Source: Lumbricus terrestris | Lineage: Eukaryota > Annelida > Clitellata > Crassiclitellata > Lumbricidae | DNA: 64,000 nt | NCBI GenBank assembly: GCA_949752735.1 | Contig: OX457036.1 | Coordinates: 92,245,368-92,309,367, forward strand | Direction: 5' to 3' | Shown: in pieces, positions 2,512-62,920 of the stretch | How the letters are laid out: each line of letters starts with the position of its first letter | How positions within the stretch are numbered: the stretch's first letter is position 1 | Translations under genes and position numbers: made by a program | The notes under the pieces: model-generated | Databases searched by the model: none | Seen by the model: only the letters and a program-made list of their open reading frames with translations | What the model was told of the DNA's origin: nothing

Positions 2512-2980
2512 ATATTAAGTGAGGATGAAGGACCAGAGTATGTGACAGTTGTTATTGGTATGATATGCAATCAGGCATGTCGGTCACTTGGTTCCTTCTA
2601 TGGATCTGCATGGGTGCCCGTTTTGACGATTGGCTGCAACTCTGATATCCTGTCAAGCGTTATGGAACAAGATGGCTTTCCAGCACTTGGTCGTGTTATG
2701 TCATCTTGGAAAACGCTTGTCGACGTCACAGTCAAGTTGGTAAAGCATTATGACTGGAAACGCATTGCCATCATTGCATCTACCGACAAAGACTGGCTTA
2801 GCATTGCACCTTATCTGAGGGATGAGTTGAAAAAACATGATATAGTCTCTGAAACAAATCACACAGTACTGGACGAGCGAGTAGTTGGCGATTTATCAAA
2901 GAGTTCGAAGGTTTACATTGAAGCTAAGAATGTGTTGGAAGCTCTGACCACTCCAGGAAATACTGTGACACCTTACCACA
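2512..2980 (+). CDS. Gene A exon 2: ANF-receptor ligand-binding region
   Basis: This exon encodes 156 codons of the extracellular ligand-binding domain. The acceptor is ...ttgtgattcag and the donor is CACA|GTAGGT. The donor is fixed by phase: it leaves one base that joins exon 3 to make ATT, while the neighbouring TAG|GTGAAA donor would cause a stop in exon 3. Visible family traits are a cysteine pair in ICNQAC, the WVPVLTIGC strand and VKHYDWKRIAII, typical of periplasmic-binding-protein-like receptors. It is about 84% identical in amino acids to gene B exon 2 (25 differences counted by hand). Confidence 0.93.
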
Positions 2981-4136
2981 GTAGGTGAAAACTTTGTATA
3001 CAGGGTTACATGTTTACCTTATGTATATGCACAGTGGTTCAACATATCATGTTATAAATTTGAAAGATATGAATCTTTCAATTTCATCTGCCGAAATGTA
3101 ATTTTACGAGCAATTTTCTTTTGAATTTTGTAGCAAAGTACTTCAAACATGAAAACAGTCTTTAATATTTTGTGAAGAAACTCTAAGTAGTATGGGTGGA
3201 TTATCTATAATTCTATATAAATAAAGTGAAGATTCTGTCTGTCTGTCTCACCGGGATGCACTTCCAGAGTTTTGAGCTTTTCACTACAAGCATTCACTAC
3301 TGTGAAGCTCTCCGCATGAGACACCCCAACGAGGGTTTGGCGATTCTCTACCACGATGAGGGTCAGGGTGGGGGAGGGCAAAACCTCAAATTTTTCCCTC
3401 GCTAAAACGTAACTATTGATCTGAAACTTTCTACCTAGACAGAGGGCCATCAGAACCACCCGGTGGAGGAGTTGGCGAATCGAATATGAGTGCAAAACTG
3501 ACGAAAAACTCAGTTGCGAGTTGAATTTGACAATATTCATGGCACTGTAGCAGTGAAGTTCATTAAAGCAGTTGCAAATAGTTTACATTTCTATTATCTG
3601 CACATAGTTTTGCACTCATATTAGTGAAAAACTACTTATTACAGCTTTGAATGATTTACAGAATCAGAAAGTCCACCAAAAGTTGTATAAAATACGAGAA
3701 TTTTGCCTTCCTATGTACATCCGTTCCTGAGATAATGACCTCTGGACTAGCCACCAAATTCATACATGTCGCGAGTGCACTGCACCCCCTCTATGTCCGT
3801 CAGCCATAAAATACAGGAACATGGTGATGGGCTTCTAAAAATTTGCATATGATGTACAGACATATCAAACTTCAAAACAGCAAAATTACAGCCAAATCTG
3901 ATATAGGTCAGCAACAAGGTATGTCTCATATTTGATGATTTCACATGGACTGACCCAAAGACGAGTCAAGTCGAGGAGCAACGATCGGCTCTACTTCCAA
4001 GACGATCAAGTCGACGATTTTTCGATCGACTCGCCCTAGCCGAGTTATAATCGACTCGGTCTATCGACTCGATCGACTGCGGGGTCTTATGTGGTAGTAG
4101 GCTAAAATGCCCAACTTTGTGCTGTTTGTTTTGCAG
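2981..4136. other. Gene A intron 2, with a Helitron-like 5' end
   Basis: At about 3209-3250 the sequence TCTATATAAATAAAG followed by a CTGT run resembles the 5' terminus of Helitrons. No matching CTAG hairpin end was found, so this is probably a fragment. The rest, up to the CGATCGACTCG-rich cluster at 3963, is unassigned. Confidence 0.4.
3963..4085. repeat. CGATCGACTCG-rich repeat cluster
   Basis: This CpG-rich stretch contains repeated CGATCGACTCG and TCGACGATTTTTCGATCGAC words and ends in ...GATCGACTGCGGGGT. That end is nearly the same as the right terminus of the large element at 40671-42583. It probably is a truncated copy of that family inside intron 2 of gene A. Confidence 0.65.
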
Positions 4137-4244
4137 TTTTTGTGTTCTTGATGTATGATGTTCAAGTGCTTGCATGTCTTATGGCTGCTCAGGATCTCAA
4201 TTTAATAGCTACCAGAGCATTTATAACGTATGGCTATTCAGTGG
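4137..4244 (+). CDS. Gene A exon 3: ANF-receptor domain
   Basis: The acceptor is ttgttttgcag and the donor is GTGG|GTGAGT. The exon encodes 35 complete codons plus split codons, including DVQVLACLMAAQDL, the helix of the second lobe also found in natriuretic-peptide-type receptors. Gene B exon 3 differs at only two residues (N to G and T to A). Confidence 0.9.
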
Positions 4245-4858
4245 GTGAGTGAATATAGTTTTGCTCCTATATCAATAACTAGGCCTACCAGCCGTGTAGG
4301 CTACTCCCGAATTTAGTGGCATAACTCGTCACTGCTCTGCACCTACAGTAGATGTTTTGCAGCTCAGTTCAGTAATGCATAAAGAGCATGTCTATAAATA
4401 AATAAATCAACCAATCAATCAATCATAGACTGAATCAAAAAATCAATCAGTCAATCGGAATTTGTGTAGCAGAAGTTAACATGCAATGACCCAGAAGAAA
4501 GCATTGATAACGAATGAATTTGCTAGTATTTCACGGAATTTGCTTTGAGTATTGTGCTACTCGCTATTTTGTATGGTCATTTCATCTGAGTAGGTGTTTT
4601 AATAAAAAATCAGACAAAATATGACAACTTACTGTTAACTACTATTGAAATCGAGTGTAAAAATTTGCTGCCATTTGTTGTACAATTAGTGCTTGGCAGA
4701 CTTTGACATTATTTCGGTCAGGTTAGGAATGTGCTAGTAATTAGGCCTTGAGGAAATGTAATGTATTTCTGAGCAATTTCTCAGAACTGCATACAAGCAT
4801 AACATAAGGTCAAATTGTTGGAAAAGATTTTGATGTGTTTTATCATTTTGTTTGAGAG
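4245..4858. other. Gene A intron 3
   Basis: This intron aligns with gene B intron 3 over most of its length, including AATC-rich simple sequence at about 4398-4460. No separate element was recognised. Confidence 0.5.
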
Positions 4859-5022
4859 ATAGTGACGCTTCATTTTGGCCGGATCGGAAAGATGATGTAA
4901 TTATGGCCCAGGAAGGTCTCATCTCGATTAACGTCAGACGACCGCTGGAACATTGGAAAAAGTTTGAATCAGATTTCACGGACAAGTATAGAGGAAATGC
5001 AAAAAAATATGGTGAAACAGAG
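4859..5022 (+). CDS. Gene A exon 4: ANF-receptor domain
   Basis: The acceptor is gtttgagag|AT; the split codon from exon 3 (G) gives Asp. The exon reads DSDASFWPDRKDDV... to GETE. The donor GAG|GTGCAT is weak but identical in both paralogues and needed for phase 0 into exon 5. There are ten amino-acid differences but only one silent difference from gene B exon 4. Confidence 0.88.
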
Positions 5023-5142
5023 GTGCATGTTTATCTAATCTTTGTCTTAAATGAACCAATGTTACATGCCCGTTTCTTATCACGTGTTGTCAAATCCATT
5101 AGCTCTGAATTGACACAGTGCGGCAAATCGCGGCAAATGTAA

Positions 5143-6955: not shown

Positions 6956-6957
6956 AT

Positions 6958-7811: not shown

Positions 7812-7956
7812 CCAGAATTAAACGTCTATGCAGGGTTGTTGCACGATGCCCTACTATTCTGGGCTTATGCTGCCAGTGAATCCATAAAGGCCAACAGAGT
7901 GAATGGGTTCGTGAAAGAAGAAATTCCAGATTTTTTTGAAAAGGCAAACTTTACAG
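7812..7956 (+). CDS. Gene A exon 5: ANF-receptor domain
   Basis: The acceptor is ctttgtttgtag and the donor is ACAG|GTAGGC. The exon reads PELNVYAGLLHDALLFWAY..., matching the 'YAGYLHDALLLYA' helix of receptor guanylyl cyclases, and ends with a possible N-glycosylation site (NFT). The acceptor was chosen because only it keeps phase 0 from exon 4. Five residues differ from gene B. Confidence 0.9.
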
Positions 7957-8431: not shown

Positions 8432-8662
8432 GTGCAACAGGGTTTGTTAACATTTCTAAGTATGGAGACCGATTCTGTGATTATGCAGTTGAAATGGTAC
8501 AAAAACAGAAGTATGTTCGTATGTTTGACTATTTTTTTGAAAATGAGACGCTTAAGCCAACGGATGTTACCGTTGCGTGGCCTGGAGAGTTAACGAAGGT
8601 TCCACCTAGTGAGCCATGTGAATTAACAGACACTTGTGACAAAGAGGACACAAATATGATCA
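8432..8662 (+). CDS. Gene A exon 6: membrane-proximal ectodomain
   Basis: The acceptor is aatgtttgcag and the donor is ATCA|GTGAGT. The exon reads GATGFVNISKYGDRFCDYA..., the conserved segment of the ligand-binding fold in which a glycine-rich turn precedes GDR..DY. It ends with the juxtamembrane cysteine pair CELTDTC. Fifteen residues differ from gene B exon 6, with only four silent codon changes. Confidence 0.92.
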
Positions 8663-9857: not shown

Positions 9858-9927
9858 TTTGGGTTTCTGTAAGTGTCTGCATTGGTGTTTTCCTATTCAC
9901 GGCTGTTCTTTGTCTTGTTTTGTTCAG
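9858..9927 (+). CDS. Gene A exon 7: transmembrane helix
   Basis: The acceptor is gactttacag and the donor is CAG|GTAAGG. It encodes IWVSVSVCIGVFLFTAVLCL plus VLFR, one hydrophobic helix ended by an arginine, as expected for the single membrane span of a receptor guanylyl cyclase. It differs from gene B at two residues (C to S, I to V). Confidence 0.93.
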
Positions 9928-11486: not shown

Positions 11487-11580
11487 GAAATCAAGACGAG
11501 AAACTGAAATGAAGGCTGTCAATGCATGGATCGTCAATTGGGATGATGTTATAACTACTTCTCCAGACAAATTGCCTTTG
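11487..11580 (+). CDS. Gene A exon 8: juxtamembrane segment
   Basis: The acceptor is acttttag|G and the donor is TTG|GTAGAT. The exon reads RKSRRETEMKAVNAWIVNWDDV, a basic cytoplasmic stop-transfer followed by the tryptophan-containing segment (W..NWDD) that in the family precedes the kinase homology domain. Confidence 0.9.
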
Positions 11581-12248: not shown

Positions 12249-12362
12249 TATACCCCAGCCATTCAGAGGGTTCTGGTTCATGAGGTGAGTCGTGTTACGT
12301 TTGGCTTGGAAGAAGTTGAGAAGGAGAAGGAGGAAACATTCTCTGATGTTGGATACTATAGA
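12249..12362 (+). CDS. Gene A exon 9: start of kinase homology domain, with a second donor
   Basis: The acceptor is ttttttag and the donor is AGA|GTGAGT. The 38 codons include a glutamate/lysine-rich segment and end DVGYYR, which continues into exon 10 (GVIVSTK). An equally strong donor, GAG|GTGAGT, lies inside at 12285. Using it would remove 26 codons in frame. The full-length form is preferred because it preserves the kinase-like strand. Confidence 0.85.
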
Positions 12363-13114: not shown

Positions 13115-14296
13115 TCACAGATTCAGTAGCGCTCCCGACCCAAAGTTAGCACTGTCGCTAACGAATAGTATAGTCTTCAGGCGCTTCCTAAACAGAGGGA
13201 GAGAGAGGCTGAGAAGCTCAAGACGTAGTTTATGTGGAAGACGGTTCCAGCAAGAGGGGCCAACATAGGCAAAGCTCCTGGACTGGGCAGTAGCCCCACG
13301 CATGCGAGGAACAACAAGGAGGCCATTAGCTGCCGAACGAAGGGCAGAGCGACCGGGGAGAGAGGAGACCTGAATACAGAAAGAACGGAGGTAGGAGGGA
13401 GCAACGCCCTGAAGAGGATTGCGCATAAGTGTCAAAATTTTGAACTCAATGCGTTGTGGTACAGGAAGCCAATGAAGAGTGTCCCGAATAAAGACTGAAA
13501 TGTGGGAGAACTTGGGGAGACCAGCAATTAGGCGAGCAGCAGCATTGAGTATTGTCTGAAGTTTAGAGAGGTTGAGAGAAGAAAGACCGGCGTATGAAGA
13601 GTTCCCAAAGTCAACCCTAGAACAGATCAAGGCGTGAACAAGCGTCTTAATAGCTTGCGGGGAAAGTGAATGACGTATGGTACGCAGCTGGCGAAGATGA
13701 TAGAGACATGTTCGCGAGACACGGTTAATATGGTCCGAGAAAGAAAGAACAGGGTCCAGAGTGAAGCCCAAGTCACGAACAGTGGAAGAGAAATGGATAT
13801 CCGGAAACAGAGTGCAGAGGAGCTCCATGTCAATCTTAGCAAGCTGAGCTCTGCCGCCAAGCCAGATGTATTGTGTTTTATCAGAGTTCAGGCAAAGACG
13901 GTTAGAGGACATCCATTGGTCCAGCGCTGAGGTGGCATCAAGAATAGTGGCGACAAGTGAGGCAGCTGCACTGGACGGGCCATGAACAAATGCTTGCCTA
14001 TCATCAGCATATTGATGAGCCGAGGCACCCTTGAGGGAGAGTATGACTGATAAATCTGCGGTGTAGAGAATGTAAAGAAGCGGCGCCAGGACCGAGCCTT
14101 GAGGCAAGCCGTAAGGGACAGGGGACCAGGCAGAGCGTGTGGACCCAAAGATCACAGCTAACGAGCGATCTGAGAGAAAAGAGCTGAGCCAAAGAAGGGC
14201 AGAGTCACCTATGCCGAAAGATTTAGAGAGACGTTCAAGGAGTATGGCGTGATCGACAGTGTCGAACGCGGCGCTAACGTCAAACAGAGCAAGCAA
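13115..14296 (-). pseudogene. LINE reverse transcriptase, C-terminal part
   Basis: The 393-codon frame contains SAAFDTVDHAILLERL, GLPQGSVLAPLLYILY and the catalytic QYADD, then the thumb and the C-terminal domain typical of CR1/L2-type elements (CNRLPHKL near the end, equivalent to 'WN.LP'). The frame is opened artificially by the hAT insertion; the start of the palm lies on the other side at 16542-16700. It is non-functional as it stands. Confidence 0.9.
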
Positions 14297-14305
14297 GGTG
14301 ATGTG

Positions 14306-16533
14306 TAGTGTGGTTCACAGATACATGGTAAAAAATAAAGTTCAAGCTAAAAACCAGGGCGCCCTCCCAGTTTGTTAGACTTATCAATAGTATTATTGAG
14401 ACAAAATTTCAGCTTCCTATTCCAACTGGAAGGCGGTGCTCAACGACTGTCTTACTTTGCATGGGCCAATGAAAAGACGTTAATTGTAGAAATAAATGTG
14501 TTGAGCATATATTCCAATACAATTGTGCTTTATTTCAAGATAGATGATACTTTACTGTAACATGACAATATGTGTGACACTTAAACAATAATTGGTGAGC
14601 TTGAAATAGAAAATTTCAGTAGGTTTTAAATATGGAAAATGTCAAAAAATGTCAAAAACATCGTTAAATCCACGAATGTCTATTGTTCTCGTTTTATGAC
14701 TCCAAACATACGATGACGTCTACACTGTAGAAGGCTTTGCAAGCACAGTGTCAACAGCATATTTCTTTGTTGATTGAGTAGGGACAGCTTTTCTATTTGC
14801 CTCAACCACTTGGAGAAAATACTGCTTTCTTCTTCATTAGTGATGAGTCAGTTTAATTCCTTGAACAGCTTCACACTTCTCTCAGCCATGTCGTTTACCA
14901 CTCTCAATTGTTGACTTCAGCCTCTACCCTGCTGATAATCATCATCGTCAGGCTATTGCACTGGTGTAAGTATAAAAAGGAATCACCAAATTTCAGGCGT
15001 GGCAGTAGTGTCAGTGTTCACTGGGTTGCAAACTCGCCCAGGCAATCCCCCTCCTTCTGTATCGCAGCACTACCGTCAACATCCTTTCACTAGGATTTGC
15101 AGTCATTCCGTAAAAAATCTTCACCTTATCTGAACCATATCAGGCAGATGGCAGCATAATAGTGTCAGACATTCAGCCTCATCTGAAAGGCACTAAGTAT
15201 TGATAATTTTCTAGAAATTCATGGCAGCAACGTTGAGCTCCTACAAATAATAGTAACCTGAATCAAAAGTCCTATATCAATCAAAATTGACAGATCTTGT
15301 CCTGAAGTTTCAGCAGCAGGAGGATGCCTTTAAGTGAAGAAGGGCACCCAATCACACAAAAGGATGAATCTGAGTTTTTCTTTTCCCTTGGATTGAATAC
15401 TTCACGTTGATTGCTAAATCGTACAATTATTTTGATGATATGCAGTAACCTGGCCATTCAACGTGCATGGTAAATTGGGCTCTCCAGTTTCTTATTGAGG
15501 GATGCTTTCCAAGGACAACCATTGACACCTCAATGACTTCTTGGTAGTCGTCTCTGGAATTGACTTTAATTTCAGCAGTCTACTTGATGAAACTGATCGC
15601 TCTCGCATGGGAGGCTTCAGTAGCGGATACGACTTCCAGTAGGCCTACTCGTATGTTGTCACGTGTCACACCATCCCACACAGCTTTAAATCTCTTTAAG
15701 ATTGGATTCTATTTTGGATTAGATGGACAACAACACAAGATGAAGATTTTGACTTAAATCAACTCCATCACAATGACGACAGCAGGCAAACCACAGGAAC
15801 ATTTTACATATCCTGTTTTCCAGAAAAACGTACACCTCACTAAAAGTCAGGTGTTGTGTCAAAGATCAAGTCTTAGCCATTATCATCGAGTCTCAGTAAC
15901 TTCAGAAGATGATGAATGACCTTGGATTTAAATTATATCCTGTCATGGAGGGACATTTGGGCATACCAAAGAGTTTAGCGACACCATCACCTGAAACTAG
16001 CACTCACAGGCGGGCAACATTTCCAGTGTACTGCAAGTGGTTAATTTGGTACAAATTCAGATCATACAGCTTCAGCATGCTCCATCTTGGCTTCTTAAGC
16101 ACTCCATATGAATGGTTTTCCGTGAAAATGGCAGGACAAAAGGATCGCACATAAGCGCTGCAGTAATTGTGACCAACAATCTCAGTGCCTCATGATCAGA
16201 TCACCTGAAGTGTTATTGCTATCAAAATGCACTTGTCACTTGATGGCTAAACAGCTGTCAAGTAGCTACCACTGACTGTAATAAGTATGATAGTGCAACA
16301 GAATCTATTTCAAGTTCATCTAAATGACAAGGGTTGAGGTTTTTGATCAAGCTAAAAGGCATCAAGATTTCTGGCTAATACAACTACATGGTAATATTTC
16401 GATGTCGTTGAGCACCGCCTTCCAGTTGGACTGGGAAGCTGAAATTTGGTCTCAATAAAACTATTGACAGGTCTAACAAACTGAGAGGGCGCCTTGGTAT
16501 CTACCTTGAATTTTATTTTTTTGGACCACCCTA
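14306..16533. mobile_element. hAT-type DNA element inserted in the LINE, 8-bp TSD
   Basis: The target duplication GTGATGTG lies at 14298-14305 and 16534-16541. The ends TAGTGTGGTTC and (complemented) TAGGGTGGTCC are imperfect terminal repeats, and homology of the two ends extends about 140 bp inward with gaps. Removing the element restores LINE codons across the site. The interior has only decayed minus-strand coding traces near 15500, not enough to call a transposase. Confidence 0.88.
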
Positions 16534-17843: not shown

Positions 17844-17924
17844 GGCGTAATAGTAAGCACGAAGATGGTCGGAAGCAGCACAATGGATGCACAAGATCCA
17901 GTTGTGTTGAGTGAGCTTAAACAA
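17844..17924 (+). CDS. Gene A exon 10: kinase homology domain, beta3 strand
   Basis: The acceptor is cttatgtgcag and the donor is CAA|GTGAGC. It encodes GVIVSTKMVGSSTMDAQDP plus LSELKQ. The VSTK strand corresponds to the ATP-binding lysine strand of kinases, and ELKQ to the alpha-C helix. Confidence 0.9.
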
Positions 17925-19699: not shown

Positions 19700-19876
19700 A
19701 TGATTAACCTGAAGCATGAAAACCTGAACATGTTTGTCGGAATCTGTGTGGAGGAACCAAACGTCTGTATGCTAACACTTTACGCCAAGCATGGTAGTCT
19801 GCATAACGTCCTTATGGATAAGGAAATGGAATTGCCTATTGAGTTCAAACTGTCCTTTGCCATCGACATTTCAAAG
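19700..19876 (+). CDS. Gene A exon 11: kinase homology domain
   Basis: The acceptor is tttctgctggcag; the donor AAG|GTTCAA is non-consensus beyond GT. The 59 codons read MINLKHENLNMFVGICVEEPNVC, then LYAKHGSLHNVL and the helix ending DISK. This matches the 'L.HENL..F.G...' to hinge and 'GSL.D.L' part of the family. Confidence 0.93.
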
Positions 19877-21149: not shown

Positions 21150-21306
21150 GGCATGGAGTATCTTCACAGTTCTGTGCTAGGCTCTCATGGCCATCTGAGT
21201 AGCACTAATTGTGTGGTGGACAAGAAGTGGACGTGTAAGGTGGCCGACTATGGAATGGGCGAGTTTCAGAAGATAAAGAAGCAGAAGGAAAGTGAAGATG
21301 CTGCAA
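21150..21306 (+). CDS. Gene A exon 12: kinase homology domain, pseudo-catalytic loop
   Basis: The acceptor is tgatttag and the donor is GCAA|GTTAGT. It reads GMEYLHSSVLGSHGHLSSTNC..., where the kinase catalytic HRD is replaced by HGH and the metal DFG by DYG (KVADYGMGEF). Loss of the HRD Asp is the family norm: the domain regulates the cyclase and does not phosphorylate. Confidence 0.94.
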
Positions 21307-22528: not shown

Positions 22529-22690
22529 ACCAGCTGTGGACAGCTCCAGAACTCATAAGAATCGAGGAGGATGAGCGTCCTTTGTATGGAACCCAGAAGG
22601 GAGATGTCTATTCCTATGGGATCATACTACAGGAATTGGCCACTCGCAATATTCCCTTTGTTAACGAAAGAAAAACCCTCACTGCAGTCG
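22529..22690 (+). CDS. Gene A exon 13: kinase homology domain, activation segment and alphaF
   Basis: The acceptor is atgttag|AC and the donor is GTCG|GTCAGT. It reads [18 protein letters not shown], then [27 protein letters not shown] and [12 protein letters not shown] are signature sequences of guanylyl cyclase pseudokinase domains. Confidence 0.95.
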
Positions 22691-22948: not shown

Positions 22949-23079
22949 TGTAGTGAGAGGGGAAATCGGCGATGGTTTTTATTACTGTGTAACTATGTAC
23001 TGTTTTATGACTCTAATTTTCATTAACAGTAGGCCTAATTATAGGCCTAGATCGTTTCTGTAATAGTCATTACCGATTA

Positions 23080-23149
<70 letters not shown>

Positions 23150-23684
23150 CAGAGAGAGACAGAGAGAGACAGAGAGATGCGATGGGCGGGCAATTGATGC
23201 ATGTAGCAGCGTGCCCAGGGTCCAAAGAGGGATGATTGACAGATGAAAGAAATGGGGTTAAGAAGGAACGCGACAGGAGAGGAGGGATCATTCGCCGGGG
23301 ATCACTGACGGTAGAGCATTGACCGCAGCGAGGCGAAGGGATCACTCGCGAACGAAAGGCCAGCATGGACCCGGAGAGCTAGTGTATAGCATCTCTTAAA
23401 CGGGTGCCTTTGAAGATAAAGGCCTGGAGCGAGCGAAGTATCGAAGAATAGTTTTATGACAAGTGTAATCGCTAGTTTGATTGTATATATGATGTAAATA
23501 CGTGAAATCGATGATAACTGTCACCAAGAAAGATTGAAAACTGTTTCTGTTCTCCGTGCAATAAACGATTACCCACGTGCCTGCGAAGAGCATAAGACCC
23601 CCGAAGACTCTGCCACTCTTCTAATTAGCACCGCTCGCCACCAAGACTGGAAGATTACGGTCAACAATCTTCTCTTCCAGTACA
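22949..23684 (+). repeat. 5' LTR (736 bp)
   Basis: It starts TGTAGTGAGAGGGG and ends TACA. It contains a (GA)n array at 23081-23175 and an AATAAA signal at 23560-23565. It is longer than the 3' LTR, mainly because of the GA array. Confidence 0.95.
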
Positions 23685-24335
23685 TTGTGCCAGCTGGGAT
23701 TTTGTTCGAGATTTCAGAACTTCAACGCTGCTGATCTCAGACAATTTTTAACGGAGCAGAGACTTTGTGCGACGACAGCAACGATTGAGAAAGAGACGAA
23801 CAGAACGACGATTCAACGGAGAAGACAGCGGGAGAAGAATTCAACGAAGAACGAAGCGGAACATCGATTCCAGACAAACGGAGAAGCAGACGTGAAAGCG
23901 ACGTTTGACGGTGGACGATTTGGCGGACTCCACGAGGACTTATCTCATTGGACGCGGCGGCTTCTTCGGAACTACACGTCCGGAGAGATTGGTGACAGGA
24001 GGACAACAACTGATGCAGTACAGACCGGGCCTGGCGAAACCTATACAGCGGTGCGGCGGATTCTTCGGAACTACACATCTGTCTGGTTAAACGGGTGAGC
24101 AGGAACCAGTTTGTTCAGTTGTGGTTGCGAATGGTCAGTGTGTGTGATTGATGTAGCCTAAGATGCTGTGAAGTTTATTTTATTGTGAGAGGAGTCTGCG
24201 AACGTTTGAATTACTGTTAACGCGAGAAAGACTGCTTTTGAGTCTATTCTGTTTTGTGTATTAGTTTTGAAGGTCAATTGAACTTCTTGTGTTTTTGAAC
24301 TTGTTTGTTCCTGTACTGTGGTTCTTCCGTTCATA
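23685..24335 (+). other. Leader of the LTR retrotransposon
   Basis: This non-coding leader between LTR and gag has a short direct repeat with the core TTCTTCGGAACTACAC at about 23960 and 24060. I could not assign a tRNA primer-binding site directly after the LTR. Confidence 0.6.
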
Positions 24336-26158
24336 ATGTTCGAGAGAATGAAGAAAGCAGAGTTGCAGGAAGAGTGTAGACAGAAAGGCATAGATTGTGA
24401 AGGCCTTGATAAAAAGGCCATGATCCAAAGTTGAAGGAAAATGAGGAGGCATCAGGTGGTTACGATGGATTGGATGAATATGAAGATGCAGACCAGGCTA
24501 GCATAGGCCTAAGCGAAAGCCAGACGAGGCTAGAACTAGTTCAGGCAGAAGAAAAACGCTCGCGTGCAGAAGAGAGGCGGTTGATGGCGGAAAAGGAAAA
24601 GATGACGGCGGAAAAGGAAAAGATGACGGCGGAAAAGGAAAAGATGCAGATGGAACTGGATCTCTTGCGTGAAAAATCAAACCTGGGTTTACTACAGCCA
24701 AACCCTTCATTTTCTGTTGGTGACCCCGTTGGTCCTTCGGTTTACTCTAAGCTACCAACCATGCACGAAGGCGAAGATATTGTGTCCTATTTCCATGCTT
24801 TCGAGAAAGTATCTATTCTGCAGGGAATTGAGGAGAACAAATGGGCTAAGCTACTTCCGGCTTTGCTTAACTCGACAATGCGTGTGCATTATAACAGACT
24901 TTCTTTTGATACCTGTTCCAACTACAGGGAAACCAAACGTTCACTGCTCGAAGCATGTAGACTCACTGCCAAATTTTACTTGGATAAGTTTAAATGCATG
25001 CATAGAACAGGGAAACAGTCTTATATGCAATTGTTGGGTGAGCTGAATGATGTGTTTGATTATTATCTTGAATGCAAAGAGATAAACGATTTTGAATCCT
25101 TAAAGGATGACATAATCATGGAGAGATTACGAGAATCTCTTCGAAGCGATTGCCGTTATTTTATTGAAGCACGGAAGCCTAAAAGGGCTGCTCAAGTGGC
25201 TGAATTTGCAGATTTACATTTTGAATGCACAATGGAAGGTCGCAAAGCTAGCCAGGGTGATCAAAAACAGAATAACAGGTTCAGAGCGCTCAATTCTGGT
25301 CACAAGGTAAACCCTTGGGAGCGAAGGTCCACTGGAATGGACAAAGAGTCATTTGCAGATAGCACCAATGATAGACCGCGAGATACGAGTGCAAGACCAA
25401 TGCATTCTGGATATGGTAATCGAGCAGATAATGGATCTCAGGCCCATAACCGAAATCACAACAAGTCATGGCCACAAAAGCAGGGACACGCACGAGTTAG
25501 ATTCGTAAAACCTGGTTCGAATCTGGGGAGAGTTATAGATTACCAGAAACGATTTATTGTGCCTTTGTTTGTAAATGATCGTCCAGTTGACGCGCTGAGG
25601 GACACCGGGGCCCAGGTTACGCTGGTTAATTCTGATCTTGTGAGAGATAACTCGTCTGCCATGAGGGATCCCATAACTGTGCAATGTGCTTTTGGACTGT
25701 TAAAATGCATTTCGACTTGTGAACTTGAAATCAGCTCCCCACAATTTGGCACAGATCGCATTGTAAGGATCAAAGCAGGGGTGGTGAAGGACCTGCAGGT
25801 GGACATGCTCATCGGTCATGATGTGTTTGTAAATAACGCTGACTTAATTGATCCCGTTAGCTCCCGTAAAGCTGATACGCCTAATGACATTTCCCAGGCT
25901 TACATAGCCACTAGGAGACGAGATTACGGACCGACTAATCGACAAACCACCAGGGCCATAAAACCCTCCAAAGCGCTCGAACCGATCAACGGGGGGCAAT
26001 GTGCGAACGATGGGACGGGAGACGGGACGACGACCGTAGACGGACCAATTAACGACTCCTCTGGAGAATTGATAAGCCTGTCACTTGAAAGGCCTTCAAC
26101 AAACAACACATGTCCTGCGGAAGGAGATACCATCAAAGATTATCCATATCGACCATAA
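24336..26158 (+). pseudogene. gag: Retrotransposon Gag plus protease (frameshifted near N-terminus)
   Basis: The frame open from 24431 gives 575 codons: a charged coiled coil (about 38-85, with repeats of AEKEKMT), a capsid region with a SCAN-like helical segment (about 160-265), a basic Asn/Arg/Ser linker without a CCHC knuckle, and an aspartic protease with DTGAQ at 391-395. The natural start is probably the ATG at 24336, which opens a SAP-like helix motif (KAELQEECRQKGID). That frame stops at 24432 and the main frame continues one base off, so a single-base loss or a programmed shift lies near 24430. The frame ends with TAA at 26156-26158. Confidence 0.85.
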
Positions 26159-26283
26159 TTGACCTATGCTCCGATGAAAGGGAGGCTCATGAGATGGGAG
26201 GCGATATCCCTACCGTAGTGAATACGCCGGCGGGCCATAGAGACCCGACCAGCGAAGAGGAGGAGTCGGTACCCCCCGCATAA

Positions 26284-29151: not shown

Positions 29152-29499
29152 AGCTGTTAAAATTATACATGCATGTGTAGTGTATACAGTTCAAGATCTG
29201 AAGTTTGTATAGTTAAAAATTCGTGTATGAGTCATATTAAGCGCTAACCAATTGCTATTATGTTTAGTCTCATTGATATTACTCGTCGTGTGTTTGTTTG
29301 TGTTTTATGTTGTAGATTAAATCACTTAGGGACTCGTGTTATAGCCAGCCTGGCGACGTCGCGAAACAACGGTGAAAAGACATTAAGATAATTGCCGTTC
29401 GACGATTGCCTGTGCTCTTGTAAAACCTCGTCGACCCGTGACGAGCTCTCCTTAAAGAGCCACCTGCACGACGTGCTGATGACACGATTCTCGTGCCAT

Positions 29500-29520
29500 C
29501 AGCTAAAGAAAGTGTGGTGA
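29500..29520 (+). other. Polypurine-tract-like site before the 3' LTR
   Basis: AAAGAAAGTGTGGTGA abuts the 3' LTR, the position of the second-strand priming site. It is purine-rich with a few T interruptions. Confidence 0.6.
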
Positions 29521-29669
29521 TGTAGTGAGAGGGGAAATCGGCGATGGTTTTTATTACTGTGTAACTATGTACTGTTTTATGACTCTAATTTTCATTAACA
29601 GTAGGCCTAATTATAGGCCTAGATCGTTTCTGTAATAGTCATTACCGATTAACCAGAGAGAGAGAGAGC

Positions 29670-29703
<34 letters not shown>

Positions 29704-35420: not shown

Positions 35421-35489
35421 GTTGTGAATTTGCTAAATACCCTCTATTCCACATTCGATGACATTACAGATAAATACGATGTTTACAAG
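35421..35489 (+). CDS. Gene A exon 17: cyclase domain
   Basis: The acceptor is atatttacag and the donor is AAG|GTAATT. The 23 codons read VVNLLNTLYSTFDDITDKYD plus VYK, equal to the 'VV.LLN.LY..FD..I...DVYK' helix of the family. Confidence 0.96.
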
Positions 35490-35876: not shown

Positions 35877-36051
35877 TGTGAGACAATTGGTGATGTGTAC
35901 ATGGTGGCAAGTGGATTGCCGGTGAGGAATGGCGATCGCCATGCACTGGAGATGACGACGATGGCTCTTCATCTGCTTAGCACCATCTCTTCCTTCAGGA
36001 TTCCACACATGAAGAATAAGATACTTCAGCTGAGAATTGGACTCCATTCAG
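35877..36051 (+). CDS. Gene A exon 18: cyclase domain, guanine-specifying Glu and second metal Asp
   Basis: The acceptor is gtgtgtcag and the donor is TCAG|GTACTC. It reads [23 protein letters not shown], ending LRIGLHSG. In the family the Glu of ETIGD selects guanine over adenine and the Asp of IGD binds metal. Both are present, so the enzyme should be a guanylyl cyclase. Confidence 0.96.
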
Positions 36052-37084: not shown

Positions 37085-37183
37085 GGTCAGTGGTTGCTGG
37101 TGTAGTCGGAATGAAAATGCCACATTACTGCTTGTTTGGTGATACCGTCAACACTGCCTCCCGAATGTGTTCGGGTGGATTGG
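37085..37183 (+). CDS. Gene A exon 19: cyclase domain, Cys of purine specificity and Asn/Arg catalytic motif
   Basis: The donor is TTGG|GTGAGG. The acceptor tgttaaataaag|GG has no pyrimidine tract, but it is the only one giving [20 protein letters not shown] plus VNTASRM in frame. The Cys of YCLFGD completes the guanine-specificity pair and N..SR are the transition-state residues. Its unusual acceptor is worth an RNA check. Confidence 0.93.
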
Positions 37184-38105: not shown

Positions 38106-38197
38106 CACTACGAATCCACATAAGCAGCGCAACAGCGGAATTACTTGAGGCCACTGGGTTGTTTGAGCTGGAGAATCGTGGAGAAAGACAAGTCAAG
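38106..38197 (+). CDS. Gene A exon 20: end of cyclase domain
   Basis: The acceptor is cttgtctag and the donor is AAG|GTACAG. It reads ALRIHISSATAELLEATGLF plus ELENRGERQVK, matching '.LKIH.S..T...L...G.FEL..RG...VK'. Confidence 0.95.
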
Positions 38198-39652: not shown

Positions 39653-39760
39653 GGCAAAGGCATCATGACGACATCCTGGGTGCTTGGCAAGAAAGGTTTC
39701 ATTATGCCAATGCCTGATCTTAGGAAAGCAGCGCCGCCTGAGGAACACGAATTCAAGTGA
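39653..39760 (+). CDS. Gene A exon 21: C-terminal tail and stop
   Basis: The acceptor is gtttgcgtgtag. It reads GKGIMTTSWVLGKKGFIMPMP and ends EEHEFK before TGA at 39758-39760. 'GKG...T.WL.G' is the conserved end of the cyclase domain. The short acidic tail is typical of family members without extra domains. Confidence 0.95.
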   Translation, partial: GKGIMTTSWVLGKKGFIMPMPDLRKAAPPEEHEFK

Positions 39761-40919: not shown

Positions 40920-41890
40920 TATATCTGTGTCATATATCTGTGTGACGTAACAAGCCTAATTTCGTATTCTCAGTGAATTTATAGATTTGCAGTCTAATCG
41001 CAGTGACGTCACAATTGGCCTCGTTTTAGATTATGTAAATGAATCTCAATAATTATTATGGTAGATCTGTGTAATAATCGAAGTTAGTCACAATAGGCCT
41101 AGTTTATACTCTCAAAATGTACTTCTATAATAACAGATCATTATCATAAATCGAAGTTAGCCACAACAGGCCTATTTCATTCTCAAAATGAACTTCTTTA
41201 ATAGTAGGTCTGTATCATGATCGAAGTGACGTCACAATGGACCTAGTTTTATATTCTCAAACTAAACGTTTAATAATAGATTTGTATCATAATCAGAGCG
41301 ATGTTGCGTTTAAACAGTCTCAGTTTTGTATTATGAAAATGATATAATATGACAGTAGATCTGTATTGTAATCGAAATGACGCAACAATAGACCTAATTT
41401 CGTTTTCTCAGTGAACTAATTTAATAGAATTGTATTATAATAGAAGTGACGTCATAAAAGGCCCCGTTTTATATTCGCAAAATGAACATAATATGCTGGT
41501 AGATCTGTATAATAATCGAAGTGACGCCACAATAGACCTTGTTTATATTCTCAATATGCACTTCTATAATAGTACATTTGTCTCATAATCGAAGTGACGT
41601 CACAATAGGCGCTGTTTTTTTTTAAATTCTCGATGTGAACTTATAATATAATAGTAAAATTGTATCATAATCAGAGTGACGTTACAACAGGCATAGGCCT
41701 AGTTCTGTATTCTCAAACATTAATGAAATTATATGACAGCAGATCTGTGTCCTGATCGAAATGACGCCACAATAGGCCTTATTTCACTTTCTCAGCGAAC
41801 TTATTTAATTGTAGAATTGTATCATAATCGAAGTGACGTCATTAAAGGTCCCGTTTTATATTCTCAAAATTAACATCTACATGACTTGCA
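40920..41890 (+). repeat. About 80-bp minisatellite containing CRE (TGACGTCA) words
   Basis: About a dozen diverged units follow the pattern 'attctcaaaatgaactt..taatagtagatctgtatcataatcgaagtgacgtcacaataggcc'. The TGACGTCA octamer is intact in several units and mutated in others. Variant units recur at about 380-445 bp (near 40932, 41377 and 41757), showing a higher-order repeat. Confidence 0.85.
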
Positions 41891-42810: not shown

Positions 42811-44289
42811 CAGTGTTTAATCTAGACGTCTCTGGGCGGGGGGGAACTTTCCCCCCCAGGATTGACATTTCCCCCCCCCCAGAAAAATTTCACCAAATGT
42901 TTTTGGTTTTTAGTAACTTTTTCATCGCTGTTTTACTTGAAGTGTTATAATATACCGTGATATTATTTACTATTATATGATTATAATGACATTATTTACT
43001 ACTATAATATGTGATACTATCATGTTGCAATGAATATAACTTACTGTATATATTTAGATAAACACTGTTTTTTCTAGCTAAAAACAGAGATGACATCTCC
43101 TCCAGAATAATTTGTCAAAATGGTAATAGTATTTAGTTGCTGTTTAGTGTTTACATCATTGCATTACATGAACTGTTATAATAATATAACCGTAATATTA
43201 TTTACTGCTACATGGTTGTAGTAATTATTTACTGTTATATTATATGACAAAATCCAGCAAAATTAGTATAATTTACTGTTAATATTTGTACAAATACTAT
43301 TTTTGTACAACTGAATGGTTATCAAGTGCTATCCTTCACATTTTAAACTGTCAAATTTTAAAATGTTTTGGTTCTATTATCTGAACACCTAGCAAAACAA
43401 CATCATTACTACAAGACTAGTGGCTTCTTGATTTTGATACCGGTAGTTTATTAGCTCTTGGTAGATTTGTGTACCATTAAATATGATTTCGGAAAGTGTG
43501 TACTGGTCAGGGCCATGTGGAGAAACTGGGATAAGCTGACAGTTTCTGATTACAGTGCTGAAAAGTCAGCTTATTTACTCATGTAAACAGTAATTCATTA
43601 GAATATCCTAGCAACAGCAGAACTGAACTGCTGAACATGATACATATAAAGATTGTAATTATATAATATATAATTATATATATATTGAAATCCTAAAACA
43701 CTTTTTATCAGTACTGAAATAATGGAGTTATTTTGTTACAATGGCGTCTTCAAATGGTACCATTGCAATGTGGAAATTCAAGAAGTTTCTAATGAGTCAC
43801 TGAAAAAGTACAGCTATTGTGTTAAGACGACACCTTAAAATACTGCCATTGCAATGTGGAAATTCAAAAAATTTCTTATGGGTCACTGAAAAAGTAGGCC
43901 CTACAGCTATTTTGTTAAGATGACACCTTAAAATGCTGCCATTGCAATGTAGAAATTCAAAAAATGTCTAATGGGACACTGAAAAAGTACAGCTATTTTG
44001 TTAAGATGACACCTTAAAATGCTGCTATTGCAATGTGGAAATTCAAAAAATTTCTAATGGGTCACTGAAAAAGTACAGCTATTTTGTTAAGATGACACTT
44101 TAAAATACTGCCATTGCAATGTGGATATTCAAAAAATTTCTAATGGGAAGGGGGATTTCCCCCCCCCCCCCCCCCCATTACCCCCTCAGTGCGCTACGCG
44201 TCTCACGAGCGTCCTAAGGACGCTCAATTGTCTCCCCCCCAAAACCTCAATTCCCTCTTCCCAGCGGAGGGGGACTAGATTAAACACTG
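42811..44289. mobile_element. CAGTGTTTAATCTAG-type DNA element, 9-bp direct repeats
   Basis: The termini CAGTGTTTAATCTAG and CTAGATTAAACACTG are perfect inverted repeats. CATGTTGGG flanks both ends (42802-42810, 44290-44298). C-rich and G-rich subterminal tracts and an internal tandem repeat are present but no transposase frame. Confidence 0.8.
43755..44145 (+). repeat. 88-bp tandem repeat, about 4.5 units
   Basis: Each unit follows 'ccattgcaatgtggaaattcaaaaaatttctaatgggtcactgaaaaagtacagctattttgttaagatgacaccttaaaat(a/g)ctg'. Units are about 90% alike; one has a small insertion. The array lies at the right end of the element at 42811-44289. Confidence 0.88.
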
Positions 44290-47096: not shown

Positions 47097-48398
47097 CGTA
47101 ATCGTAATCGTAAACTCGAAATTTCTAAAGCGCCACTCGAAAGCCAAGCGCGGGGCACCAGCTTATTCACGAGCGCTGCGTTGCGTTAGAAGGGTTGTCC
47201 GTGAGAATAGTCCGTGGTGGTCCGGGTCGAGTTACCATAGGATCAGGATCAAATGCGTTGTGTTAGAAGGGTTGTCCGTTAGAGTAGCCTAGTCCGTGGT
47301 GGTCCGGGTCGAGTTACCATAGGATCAGAGGGGCGGAACAGCTACTAAGGTGGGTGTCGTCTGGGCCGGGAATTGGAGGGTGGAGGATCAGTTGAGATAG
47401 GGTAAGAGATCGTGAAAAGGAGTGTCTTAAGTTTCGAATGAAAAACCCGAGGTGTGATGGATAGAGGAGCCTGAGGAAGGTTGTGGTGTGTGATTAGAAA
47501 TGATGATGAAGGGACTGAAAAGGATCGAAATTCAGGAGGCAGATCATTCCAAAGGCGTGGTGCTGAGATGGATATGGCTCGGTTGGAGAACTTGAGATGA
47601 CTTGTGACCGGGGGTCGAGAAAGTGTAAGGCAGGCGGATGATCGGGTAGAACGGGTAGGCTGGATGGTGAAGAGTTCGCGAAGATAACTGGGCTGGGAGC
47701 ATTGTAAAGAGTTGTAAGTTAAGGAGAGAACTTTGAAGTGGATTCGCTCTGGGATTTTCAGCCAGTGAAGAGACTTGAGGACAGGGGTGATGTGATGATG
47801 TCTGGGCGTTCTGGTGACGGCTCTAGCTAGAGAATTTTGAATGAGTTGGAGGCGCTTAAGTTGTGTGGAATCAAGGTTTAAGAACAGGGAGTTGCAGTAG
47901 TCAAGCTTTGAGTGGACGATGGACGTAGCAATTGTGGAAGCAGTTTTGAAATCAAGCATGGGTCGGATGCGTCGGAGGTCCCGGATGTGCATGAAACAGG
48001 AGCGCGGTAGGCCTAGGCTAGAGATGTGGTTAGAGAAGGAGAGATGCGAGTCGAACATTACACCAAGATTGCGAACAGGAGCATCGGAAGTAAAGGTGAG
48101 AGTTGAAGAGTTAGTCGATAGGTGTATTGAAGGGTCAGGAATTTTCTTGATTTGGTCAGGTAGGCCAAGAATAATGAACTCTGTTTTTGATGGGTTGAGG
48201 CAGAGGAGGTTTGAGGACATCCATTGAGAGATCAGATTGCCCACATTGAGAAGTTGAGCAATGGCGGTGGAGAAAGAGCCTGGGGAGAAGGATATAAAGA
48301 GTTGGGTGTCGTCTGCGTAGAGATGGTGGTCAACAGACGAGGATTTTATTAGATGACTTAAAGGAGTGGTGTAGAGGATGAAGAGCAACGGACCCAAC
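47097..48398 (-). mobile_element. 5'-truncated L2/Rex-like LINE with GGGAT target duplication
   Basis: On the minus strand the (TTACGA)n tail at 47097-47115 follows the tail motif GTGGCGCTTTAGAAATT. GGGAT flanks both sides (47092-47096, 48399-48403). The empty site is preserved in the related element at about 49568-49590. Confidence 0.85.
47345..48397 (-). pseudogene. LINE reverse transcriptase, 5'-truncated
   Basis: The 350-codon frame starts inside the palm (GPLLFILYTTPLSHLI), contains the catalytic HLYADDTQLFISF, then NPSKTEFIILG, LDYCNSLF, LHWLKIPERIHFKVL and APRLWNDLPPEFR. The fingers and endonuclease are missing because of 5' truncation, so it is dead on arrival. The frame itself has no stop, indicating a fairly young copy. 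Confidence 0.93.
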
Positions 48399-48490
48399 GG
48401 GATACGATTAATACGGGGGATACTCTATTTTGTGACACCTGCAATCGAAAAACTAGCATTTGATCAGTCTGTGGTAGCGGCCAGAGAGGC

Positions 48491-50430: not shown

Positions 50431-50727
50431 ATGAGAATGATGTACATATCTGTGCTGGTTCTGATCCTTCTCAGCAGTGTCCAGATCAATGTATACGCTG
50501 TTAAAGAGAAACTGTATGTGTTAGTGCTTTTGCCAATGGAGCACGGAAATGTTCGTATCAAAAAGATTAATGAACTTGGGGCATATATTGCACTAGACTT
50601 TATTCAGGAGAACAAAATTATTGATCCAGATGAATATGAAATCGTACTAGATGTTCTGAATGATTACTGTGATGGGACTATGGCAATGGGACAAATTCTT
50701 CGTGAATTTTTCAGGAAGTCTGAACAA
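50431..50727 (+). CDS. Gene B exon 1: signal peptide and start of ectodomain
   Basis: The ATG at 50431 starts MRMMYISVLVLILLSSVQIN plus VYA, a clear signal peptide; the same frame is open upstream to an ATG at 50356, but those residues are polar and spoil the signal. The exon continues KEKLYVLVLLPMEHGN and ends FFRKSEQ before a strong donor CAA|GTAAGA, phase 0 into exon 2. The exon may begin after 'atgtttgcag' at 50416 if a 5' leader exon exists. Gene A's counterpart is outside the window. Confidence 0.85.
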
Positions 50728-53283: not shown

Positions 53284-53752
53284 ATATTAAGTGAGGATGA
53301 AGGACCAGAGTATGTGGCAGTTGTTATTGGTATGATATGCAATCAGGCATGTCGGTCACTTGGTTCCTTCTATGGATCTGCATGGGTGCCTGTTTTTTCG
53401 ATCGGCTGCAACTCTGATTTCCTGTCAAGCATGGTAGAACAAGATGGCTTTGCATCACTTGGTCGTGTTATGTCATCTTGGAAAACGCTTGTCGACGTCA
53501 CAGTCAAGTTGGTAAAGCATTATGGATGGAAACGCATTGCCATAATTTCATCTACTGACAAAGACTGGCGTAGCTTTGCACCTTATCTGAGGAACGAGTT
53601 GGATAAATATAATATAGACGCTGAAACAAATCACACAGTACTGGACGAGCGAGTAGTTGGCGATTTGTCAAACAGTTCGAAGGTTTACATTGAAGCTAAG
53701 AATGCGTTGGAAGCTCTGACCACTTCAGGAGACTCTTTGCCTCCTTACCACA
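53284..53752 (+). CDS. Gene B exon 2: ANF-receptor ligand-binding region
   Basis: Same length (469 nt), acceptor and donor as gene A exon 2. Of the codons that differ, about 25 change the amino acid and five are silent. Changed positions include VLTIGCNSDI to VFSIGCNSDF and the KKHDIVSE to DKYNIDAE segment, which are surface-type positions. Confidence 0.95.
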
Positions 53753-57331: not shown

Positions 57332-57439
57332 TTTTTGTGTTCTTGATGTATGATGTTCAAGTGCTTGCATGTCTTATGGCTGCTCAGGATCTCGGTTTAA
57401 TAGCTACCAGAGCGTTTATAGCCTATGGCTATTCAGTGG
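57332..57439 (+). CDS. Gene B exon 3
   Basis: Same borders and length (108 nt) as gene A exon 3. It encodes FVFLMYDVQVLACLMAAQDL, then GLIATRAFIAYGYSV. Confidence 0.93.
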
Positions 57440-58003: not shown

Positions 58004-58167
58004 ATAGTGACGCTTCATTTTGGCCGGATCGGAAAGATGATGTAATTTTGGCCCAAGAAGGTCTCATCTCGATTAACGTCAGACGACCGCTGGGAGAATG
58101 GCAAAAGTTTGAATCAGCTTTCCTGGACAAGCATAGTGGAAATACAAAAACATATGGTGAAACAGAG
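58004..58167 (+). CDS. Gene B exon 4
   Basis: Same borders and length (164 nt) as gene A exon 4, including the weak GAG|GTGCAT donor. The KKFESDFTDKYRGNAKK region of A reads QKFESAFLDKHSGNTKT here. Confidence 0.93.
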
Positions 58168-61123: not shown

Positions 61124-61268
61124 CCAGAAATAAACGTCTATGCAGGGTTGTTGCACGATGCCCTACTCTTCTGGGCTTATGCTGCCAGTGTATCCATAAA
61201 GGCCAACAGAGTGAATGGGTTCGTGAAAGAAGAAATTCCAGATTTTTTTGACAAGATAAACGTTACAG
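61124..61268 (+). CDS. Gene B exon 5
   Basis: Same borders and length (145 nt) as gene A exon 5; PEINVYAGLLHDALLFWAYA. It ends with NVTG, keeping the possible glycosylation site. Confidence 0.93.
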
Positions 61269-61283
61269 GTAGGCCTAACTGTC

Positions 61284-61660: not shown

Positions 61661-62093
61661 AACTGTCAGTTAGTAGCTGTTTATAATATATAAAACAGCA
61701 TGTATAATATTCTTTGCGTTTTCCATCAGTTGCGGCTATGGATTTTTTGCACCAATGGACGAAAAGGAAATAAAATAAAATAATTACAAACAGTAAATAA
61801 ATAAAGTTGCACAAAATTAAAAAAGTGGAAGAAGCGTGACAGTAAAGAGGAAGCGGGATTTTTGGAGAAATGTAGAAAACAAAAATAGTTTTGCAACTAT
61901 GAATGTTTTGGATGCATTCCTCACATACTGCGCTGTTAAGAGGTTCTTAGAAATTTACTGTAGAAATGTGTAAAAGTTCAGATACATCGGCCTACATGAA
62001 TACAGATAAAAAAAAATAAACATTAAAAGTAATAAGTTTTAATTGTCTTGCACGTGCGATGAAACCTTATAACTTATTTTAAAATGTTTGCAG

Positions 62094-62324
62094 GTGCAAC
62101 AGGGATGGTTAGACTGGCTCTGTCTGGAGACCGATTCTGTGATTACGCAGCTGAAATGGTACAAAAACAGAAGTATGTTCGTATGTTTGACTATTTCTTT
62201 GAAAATGAGACGCTTAGGCCAACGCATGTCACCGTTGCGTGGCCTGGAGAGTCAACGAAGGTTCCACCTAGTGAGCCATGTGAATTAACAGACACCTGTG
62301 ACAAAGCGAACAGAGATTTGATCA
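62094..62324 (+). CDS. Gene B exon 6
   Basis: Same borders and length (231 nt) as gene A exon 6. It keeps GDRFCDYA and the CELTDTC cysteine pair; fifteen residues differ, clustered just before GDR and at the exon end. Confidence 0.94.
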
Positions 62325-62469
62325 GTGAGTTTTGCTGTTTGTTATCTCTGCCTCAAAGTGTGTCTCTGCCTATTGGTTATTTTGGGCCGTCTATATACCA
62401 GATTGTAAATTCAATGTTGTTGAATTTTACATTTGGTTCTGTGTCATGTTTAATTAAATGAAGGATGAT

Positions 62470-62705
62470 ATTGTATTGCATTAAAACATTTATAAAGCAA
62501 CTCTACTTGGGTGAACGGTTCATAGGCGCTGCAATTGCGCAATGGCATGGAGAAGAAAATTTAATAGGTTTGAGAAACGAAATTGAAGAGACAGCTAGAA
62601 TTTGAGATCGAGTAGATGCATGGGGACGGCGTATTCGAAAGAGAGAGAGACCATTTTGAGGTAGAGGACTGGGACTGACACATAGCTGTTCTTGTGTGAG
62701 GAACT
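62470..62705 (-). mobile_element. LINE 3' fragment shared with gene A
   Basis: Alignable with 9030-9270; present before duplication. It ends at the empty site of the gene A hAT MITE. Confidence 0.5.
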
Positions 62706-62850
62706 AGAAGATCAAATCATTATAATATTATATTATATCATAGTAGGAATTTTAAATTCATTGCACTGGACTAGCAACAACCAACAACTTGGCTGAATAT
62801 TTTATGCTGATGGATCATAATAATTAGGCTTTGTTTGCTTGACTTTACAG

Positions 62851-62920
62851 TTTGGGTTTCTGTAAGTGTCTCGGTTGGTGTTTTCCTATTCACGGCTGTT
62901 CTTTGTCTTGTTTTGTTCAG
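62851..62920 (+). CDS. Gene B exon 7: transmembrane helix
   Basis: Same borders and length (70 nt) as gene A exon 7: IWVSVSVSVGVFLFTAVLCL. The following exon (juxtamembrane) is expected just beyond 64000, since it lies 1.56 kb downstream in gene A. Confidence 0.94.

Follow-up and report, generated by a model that had tools for sequence, protein, structure and literature searches.

A tandem array of receptor guanylyl cyclase genes

Three neighbouring receptor guanylyl cyclase genes (Z, A and B), all complete, lie in tandem on one chromosome within a single 98.9-Mb contig, their starts about 51 and 66 kb apart. The intracellular exons of gene A are inside the window (the whole stretch of DNA analysed, 64,000 nucleotides), those of gene B just outside it, and copy Z is upstream; the initial annotation was right to call A and B receptor guanylyl cyclases. 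Each copy has 21 exons with canonical splice sites throughout and encodes 1,083 aa without internal stop. Features are listed in window numbering unless prefixed C1.

C1:92244620-92244916 (747-451 bases before the window), + strand: gene A exon 1 (blastn; 94.9% identity to B exon 1)
2512-2980, 4137-4244, 4859-5022, 7812-7956, 8432-8662, + strand: gene A exons 2-6, ligand-binding ectodomain (splice sites, open frame)
9858-9927, + strand: gene A exon 7, transmembrane segment (splice sites, open frame)
11487-11580, 12249-12362, 17844-17924, + strand: gene A exons 8-10 (exons 8-13: juxtamembrane region and first part of the kinase-homology domain)
19700-19876, 21150-21306, 22529-22690, + strand: gene A exons 11-13
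22949-30242, + strand: LTR retrotransposon in gene A intron 13
31707-31881, 33155-33295, 34797-34920, 35421-35489, + strand: gene A exons 14-17
35877-36051, 37085-37183, 38106-38197, 39653-39760, + strand: gene A exons 18-21, single terminal stop
50431-50727, + strand: gene B exon 1 (open frame with a phase-0 GTAAGA donor; the exon is conserved across all three copies)
53284-53752, 57332-57439, 58004-58167, 61124-61268, 62094-62324, 62851-62920, + strand: gene B exons 2-7
Past the window end, up to 86026 (C1:92331393), + strand: gene B exons 8-21

Gene A exons 8-13 were placed using tblastn (with an NPR1 sequence and with proteins P0014 and P0016), modelling, and the same exons in Z and B. Exons 14-21 encode the end of the kinase-homology domain, the signalling helix, the guanylyl cyclase domain and the stop. 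Gene B exon 1 encodes a signal-peptide-like start and the first 99 residues, the position of the start codon being uncertain. The retrotransposon in intron 13 has TG..CA ends, is flanked on both sides by ATCAG and contains Pfam matches to protease, integrase, reverse transcriptase and RNase H; its two LTRs align over 740 columns, with 3 mismatches and 22 bases in gaps. An Rfam search gave no match.

Gene A matched Pfam ANF_receptor at 1.3e-25; scores were 90.7 bits for A (exons 2-8) and 98.9 bits for B (exons 1-7) against a cut-off of 25.4, and the domain was assigned in Z by alignment to A and B, without a scan of its own. The gene A ectodomain matched natriuretic peptide receptor structures by sequence, and the single transmembrane segment was judged by eye from the hydrophobic stretch WVSVSVCIGVFLFTAVLCLVLF in exon 7. 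The kinase-homology and cyclase domains of gene A scored 1.4e-38 and 4.1e-62, the latter for Pfam Guanylate_cyc on the joined exons 11-21, and Z, A and B each gave two Guanylate_cyc exon matches above the cut-off. Eight ectodomain cysteines are identical across the three copies. By analogy with the family, each copy would form a dimeric single-pass receptor, in which a ligand held in the extracellular Venus-flytrap domain would switch on the cyclase and raise cGMP.

NPR-A/GC-A and NPR-B/GC-B have the same arrangement of ANF_receptor ectodomain, one transmembrane segment, and kinase-homology and cyclase domains, and their YFSDIVGF and ETIGD motifs and one further 11-residue block align with these genes. 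The ectodomain is 20-28% identical to the 40 top-scoring rows listed, and in the tree the genes fall outside the vertebrate clade. The closest intracellular parts found were those of P0014 (850 aa) and P0016 (1067 aa), with 63% and 55% identity, and the tree groups both with gene A (support 100/100 and 100/99), whereas their ectodomains are 26% and 28% identical to that of B. A full-length search returned 12 ectodomain relatives at E<=0.001, of which the best five cover 52-54% of the query, and there was no ectodomain relative among the 7,994 candidates for ectodomain alignment.

Replacement and silent change in the ectodomain and enzyme parts

Exons 2-7 of A and B (1,187 nt per gene) have equal lengths, AG/GT flanks at all exons, no indel and no stop, and differ at 88 nucleotides. 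The hand count in the initial annotation was exact, both in total (59 replacement and 12 silent-only codons among 395) and by exon (replacement/silent 25/5 in exon 2, 2/1 in exon 3, 10/1 in exon 4, 5/1 in exon 5, 15/4 in exon 6 and 2/0 in exon 7). Two changes were found in 17 of the 71 changed codons, so a count of silent-only codons understates silent change; Nei-Gojobori steps numbered 69.5 for replacement and 18.5 for silent change. The A-B dN/dS was 1.07 (0.70-1.85) by NG86, 1.26 (p=0.42), 1.21 and 1.30 by codon ML, 1.00 on single-hit codons and 1.13 by ML with double hits masked. The earlier statement that dN/dS appears to exceed 1 held insofar as the ratio was near or slightly above 1, in the ectodomain only, but it was never significantly above 1. 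A gene-wide excess was significant by no method.

Across the three copies, dN/dS was 1.05 in the ectodomain and 0.14 in the intracellular part, and a common w was rejected (LRT 87.2, p 9.7e-21); w=1 was not rejected for the ectodomain (LRT 0.08). Residues vary at 84/471 ectodomain and 17/588 intracellular positions, and intracellular w was 0.08-0.13 in each pair, with upper limits of 0.18-0.24. This contrast within the gene, between ectodomain and enzyme part, is a strong result.

An ectodomain w near 1 would also be expected if one copy were a decaying duplicate, an explanation we find scarcely credible: all three copies keep an open frame and canonical splicing signals over their whole length, and the intracellular w is low in every pair. 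The reading preferred below is also backed by exons 2-7 of A and B, which have no indel where 24.5 were expected and no stop, against a mean of 3.48 under random change (P=0.025). Haplotypes joined end to end in the assembly could in principle imitate the array; three copies in one contig and an intron divergence of 0.12-0.14 between B and the others make such an artefact very improbable. The three-copy evidence lowers the odds of decay, artefact and adaptation alike.

Introns as a neutral yardstick

Intron distances were 0.049-0.070 for Z-A, 0.140-0.144 for Z-B and 0.122-0.138 for A-B, which makes B the longest branch; B would be the earliest copy to split off. With introns as the neutral control, as the initial annotation had proposed, the claimed excess did not appear: the ratio of ectodomain dN to intron divergence was 0.59 (0.42-0.79) for Z-A, 0.51 (0.39-0.66) for Z-B and 0.61 (0.46-0.78) for A-B, all below 1 with every upper limit below 0.8. 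For the intracellular part it was 0.06-0.10. Silent divergence of the ectodomain relative to introns was 1.00 for Z-A, 0.43 for Z-B and 0.60 for A-B; it is chiefly this shortage of silent change that raises the A-B dN/dS. On the preferred reading the high A-B ratio has two sources: ectodomain replacements accrue roughly half as fast as intron changes, and silent sites of B have diverged from those of the other copies only about half as far as introns have. As a caution for duplicates in general, dN/dS near 1 may reflect low silent divergence, which was revealed here by the introns.

The likeliest cause of the low silent divergence is exon-centred gene conversion or silent-site constraint. A rival explanation, that such conversion lowers silent divergence between B and the other copies and multinucleotide mutations create patches of change, is less likely than not. 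It agrees with the silent/intron ratios, reduced in both B pairs and not in Z-A, and with A-B intron divergence (JC) of 0.081 within 60 nt of exons, 0.101 at 60-150 nt and 0.156 at 150-400 nt, though it was 0.097 beyond 400 nt; splice-site constraint might equally reduce divergence near exons. When intron patterns were imposed on exons without selection, a mean of 17.0 double-hit codons resulted, equal to the number observed, and rate models fitted as well as or better than models of selection. Against it, changes were more clustered in exons than in introns, and no sign of rate variation emerged in the intracellular part (LRT 0.00), a point that makes a general mutational mosaic less likely. 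Taken as the yardstick, near-exon intron divergence (0.081) would raise the A-B dN ratio to about 0.9-1.0, about neutral.

Codon classes, ligand contacts and ectodomain divergence

Site tests at face value favoured a codon class above 1. In the three copies, M2a was preferred to M1a (LRT 13.65, p 0.0011, with 39% of codons placed in a class at w 3.0), and for A-B a two-class HMM gave an LRT of 23.6, reached by 0/360 simulated nulls without positive selection. Models of rate variation matched or surpassed these fits, a local-rate model having a higher likelihood than M2a (-5302.59 vs -5305.06), and the signal was gone or nearly gone after double-hit codons were masked. Masking the 24 such codons in the three copies left no signal (w 0.76), though masking also discards real changes and has low power. 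The HMM, at first seemingly decisive, was nearly equalled by the local-rate model, and masking reduced its LRT to 3.2; when 48 data sets were simulated under each of two settings, 62.5% and 37.5% of them gave an LRT above 3.84, so the textbook threshold is invalid. No codon class above 1 was robust to both rate variation and double hits.

The initial annotation had suggested that the changes reflect adaptive ligand recognition. For the 24 of 30 listed NPR-A hormone contacts that could be mapped, at low identity, 2 vary in the three copies compared with 74/371 other codons (57/371 for A-B), and contacts were not enriched for change (P 0.90 for A-B, 0.96 for three copies). Codons replaced between A and B fall at less conserved columns (P 0.017-0.022), and for variable codons of the three copies the link to conservation was weak (P 0.10). 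When A-B codons were partitioned by conservation among 27 relatives and NPR1 (one relative, P0013, without a listed ANF_receptor match), no class was significantly above 1, the lowest P(w<=1) being 0.076 (23 transmembrane codons) and 0.116 (variable half).

Adaptive change in the ectodomain is possible. In its specific form, with patches of the ectodomain pushed apart under positive selection as ligands differ or co-evolve, most strongly on the B branch, it is doubtful. For the ectodomain alone, w was 2.12 on the B branch compared with 0.72 on the other two branches (lnL -2586.43 vs -2589.30), but this excess fell to 1.33 (p 0.11) once the silent scale was shared with the intracellular exons, and B is the longest branch by introns. 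The absence of a gene-wide w above 1, replacement divergence lower than that of introns in each pair, the better fit of local rates than of M2a, the masked w and the unenriched NPR-A contacts all stand against it.

Instead, the fast ectodomain looks like loosened constraint. Our preferred reading, to which we give a probability of roughly 0.6, is a young tandem array of natriuretic-peptide-receptor type in which the ectodomain is weakly constrained and the enzyme strongly, and for which positive selection is unnecessary. The high A-B ratio and its restriction to the ectodomain survive from the earlier interpretation; positive selection and ligand adaptation were over-read. Points counted against weak constraint were the M2a LRT, the 0/360 simulations, the B-branch w, the near-exon intron yardstick, the lack of intracellular rate variation and the weak three-copy link to conservation.

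A combined account is unlikely. In it, exon exchange by gene conversion would remove silent differences among the three receptors, selection would maintain or re-establish replacements in five short ectodomain patches (at about codons 96-113, 148-153, 223-242, 290-306 and 367-371 of exons 2-7), and copies sharing one enzyme would come to bind different ligands on a surface distinct from the NPR-A hormone contacts. With one half nearly frozen and the other fast, the array is tractable for studying how ligand specificity splits after duplication.

Expansion of receptor cyclases inside animal lineages is a recurrent event (PMC1435932). The lineage-specific expansions described in that paper and in PMC6787079, which include echinoderm sperm receptor guanylyl cyclases, resemble this array in having multiplied within one lineage; no protein in the tree of these genes is named as a sperm receptor guanylyl cyclase. 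A literature search on positive selection in the ectodomains of duplicated or tandem receptor guanylyl cyclases, with most subscription papers outside its scope, found no report. In the same genome, further clusters of about eight cyclase loci were found on C4 and on C11.

Gene array, relatives and signs of constraint

The genome searched comprised 1.06 Gb in 331 contigs. The window occupies C1:92245368-92309367, and flanks of 80 kb upstream and 60 kb downstream of it were also examined. Three receptor guanylyl cyclase genes of the natriuretic-peptide-receptor type were delimited with flank sequence:

Gene Z: -66643 to -19354 (window numbering); third copy, upstream.
Gene A: in the window without exon 1, which lies 747-451 bases upstream of the window.
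Gene B: first seven exons in the window; the remainder reaches 86026 (window numbering).

Each gene has 21 exons of equal lengths (3,252 nt, 1,083 residues), a single terminal stop and AG/GT at all introns; the conserved exon 1 ATG was assumed as start codon, and gene B has further in-frame ATGs upstream. Pfam matches were ANF_receptor in genes A and B and kinase and Guanylate_cyc in gene A, while profile matches to Guanylate_cyc exons were above cut-off in all three genes. Three blocks of the cyclase domain that bind metal and substrate, YFSDIVGF, ETIGD and [11 protein letters not shown], align with NPR1.

The gene copies are not dead. Exons 2-7 of A and B (ectodomain and transmembrane segment) differ by 88 nucleotides and 0 gaps, where 24.5 gap events were expected from the 70 in the introns; 88 random changes placed on A produced a mean of 3.48 stops, and zero stops in 2.5% of 2,000 trials. 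Eight ectodomain cysteines are identical across Z, A and B, and N-glycosylation sequons number 7, 4 and 4, respectively.

The closest intracellular parts found were those of two relatives, P0014 (63% identical) and P0016 (55%), whose ectodomains were 26% and 28% identical to that of B. Gene structure and domain content mark the host as an animal. A tree built from 38 intracellular sequences placed gene A with P0014 (100/100) and next with P0016 (100/99). Gene A thereby falls outside the named groups sampled in that tree (hemichordate, echinoderm, amphioxus and vertebrate). A Cys immediately precedes ETIGD in gene A (start of exon 18, 35877-35879), Z and B; among 132 returned proteins this residue was Cys in P0014 only, Val in 122 and Ile in 2, the motif being absent from 7.

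Replacement, silent and intron divergence

The hand count of the initial annotation was exact (1,187 nt of exons 2-7, 59 replacement and 12 silent-only codons, same per-exon split), but its inference of an A-B dN/dS above 1 was over-read. The Nei-Gojobori method counted 69.5 replacement steps (922.5 sites) and 18.5 silent steps (262.5 sites), giving dN 0.0794, dS 0.0740 and a ratio of 1.07 (bootstrap 0.70-1.85; at or below 1 in 37% of replicates). Codon maximum likelihood, in our own implementation, gave 1.26 (F3x4), 1.21 (F1x4) and 1.30 (equal frequencies), not significantly different from 1 (p 0.42, 0.51 and 0.35). Single-hit codons alone (42 on 882.3 versus 12 on 251.7 sites) gave 1.00. Four-fold sites were changed at 6/151, versus 339/3,332 intron sites (P 0.011).

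Divergence relative to introns (BLAST-alignable introns only; ranges in brackets)
Pair; intron K2P; ectodomain dN/intron; intracellular dN/intron; ectodomain silent/intron; intracellular silent/intron
Z-A; 0.049-0.070; 0.59 (0.42-0.79); 0.10; 1.00 (0.57-1.47); 1.35
Z-B; 0.140-0.144; 0.51 (0.39-0.66); 0.06; 0.43 (0.24-0.64); 0.63
A-B; 0.122-0.138; 0.61 (0.46-0.78); 0.09; 0.60 (0.37-0.89); 0.69

Since intron distances are larger in pairs with B, B split first and a longer B branch is expected. With introns as neutral control, ectodomain dN was 0.51-0.61 of the intron rate. Replacements thus accumulate more slowly than intron changes in all three pairs, and it is low silent divergence that raises dN/dS in pairs with B. 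The robust result is a young three-copy array in which the ectodomain is about seven-fold less constrained than the enzyme; positive selection is not needed for that contrast, yet is possible.

Silent sites diverge at 0.43-0.69 times introns between B and Z or A, and equal or exceed introns between Z and A. A-B intron divergence was 0.081 within 60 nt of exons, 0.101 at 60-150 nt, 0.156 at 150-400 nt and 0.097 beyond; because near-exon divergence is low, a local yardstick would place the A-B ratio near 0.9-1.0. Exon-centred gene conversion, or silent or splice-site constraint, could lie behind the low silent and near-exon divergence.

Clustered replacements, site tests and ligand contacts

A-B replacements were clustered (52 pairs at most 3 codons apart versus 25.9 expected; 0 of 4,000 shuffles) beyond intron clustering: of 2,000 intron samples, fractions of 0.044, 0.033, 0.002, 0.000 and 0.024 were equally clustered at 2, 3, 6, 9 and 15 nt. 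A two-class HMM gave dN/dS (w) of 0.19 and 6.3, with a likelihood-ratio statistic (LRT) of 23.6 over w1=1. This was reached by 0 of 360 sets simulated from observed intron patterns (highest 22.17), of which 48 had no selection and 312 had purifying selection of one of three kinds, and a replacement/silent ratio of at least 59/12 occurred in 8 of 264 simulated sets. Weighing against this, a local-rate HMM came within 0.7-1.0 lnL units of the two-class HMM, and the LRT fell to 3.2 once 17 double-hit codons (two changes each) were masked. For the three copies, M2a was better than M1a (LRT 13.65, p 0.0011). A model of two rates in which w was capped at 1 nevertheless fitted better than M2a (lnL -5302.59 versus -5305.06), and masking 24 double-hit codons left no variation (w 0.76). 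Contrary to a general mutational mosaic, the intracellular exons had no rate variation (LRT 0.00), though changes there are few. Multinucleotide mutation is known to produce false signals (PMC9500374).

Contact residues of NPR-A (30, from the docking tables and legend of PMC9699598, omitting legend residue 77) were mapped through a 30-row alignment, which placed 24 at low identity. On this low-identity mapping contacts were not enriched for change, either between A and B (2/24 versus 57/371 others, P 0.90) or among the three copies (2/24 versus 74/371, P 0.96). NPR-A 162-198 contains cross-linked hormone-contact regions (PMC3955944); in the homologous A-B stretch, likewise mapped at low identity, 9/37 were changed versus 50/358 (P 0.08).

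Mobile elements, repeats and other cyclases

22949-30242: young LTR retrotransposon, intron 13 of gene A; LTR pair with TG..CA ends.
13115-14314 (-): reverse-transcriptase frame (RVT_1 1.4e-16), intron 9 of gene A.
47345-48424 (-): reverse-transcriptase frame (RVT_1 6.4e-08), between A and B.
40995-41874: tandem array, ~72 bp unit, 11.7 copies, between A and B.
43729-44148: tandem array, ~86 bp unit, 4.4 copies, between A and B.

The LTRs differ by 3 mismatches and 22 gap bases across 740 columns, far under the divergence among gene copies, with a 5-bp duplication, ATCAG. The 955-aa frame places integrase (92-261) ahead of reverse transcriptase (577-736) and RNase H, the order of Gmr1-like gypsy elements.

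Cyclase genes are widely expanded in this genome. At least 150 Guanylate_cyc exon matches were scored, and further clusters, of ~8 loci each as counted from the match table, lie outside the window at C4:11.42-11.71 Mb and C11:0.75-1.18 Mb.
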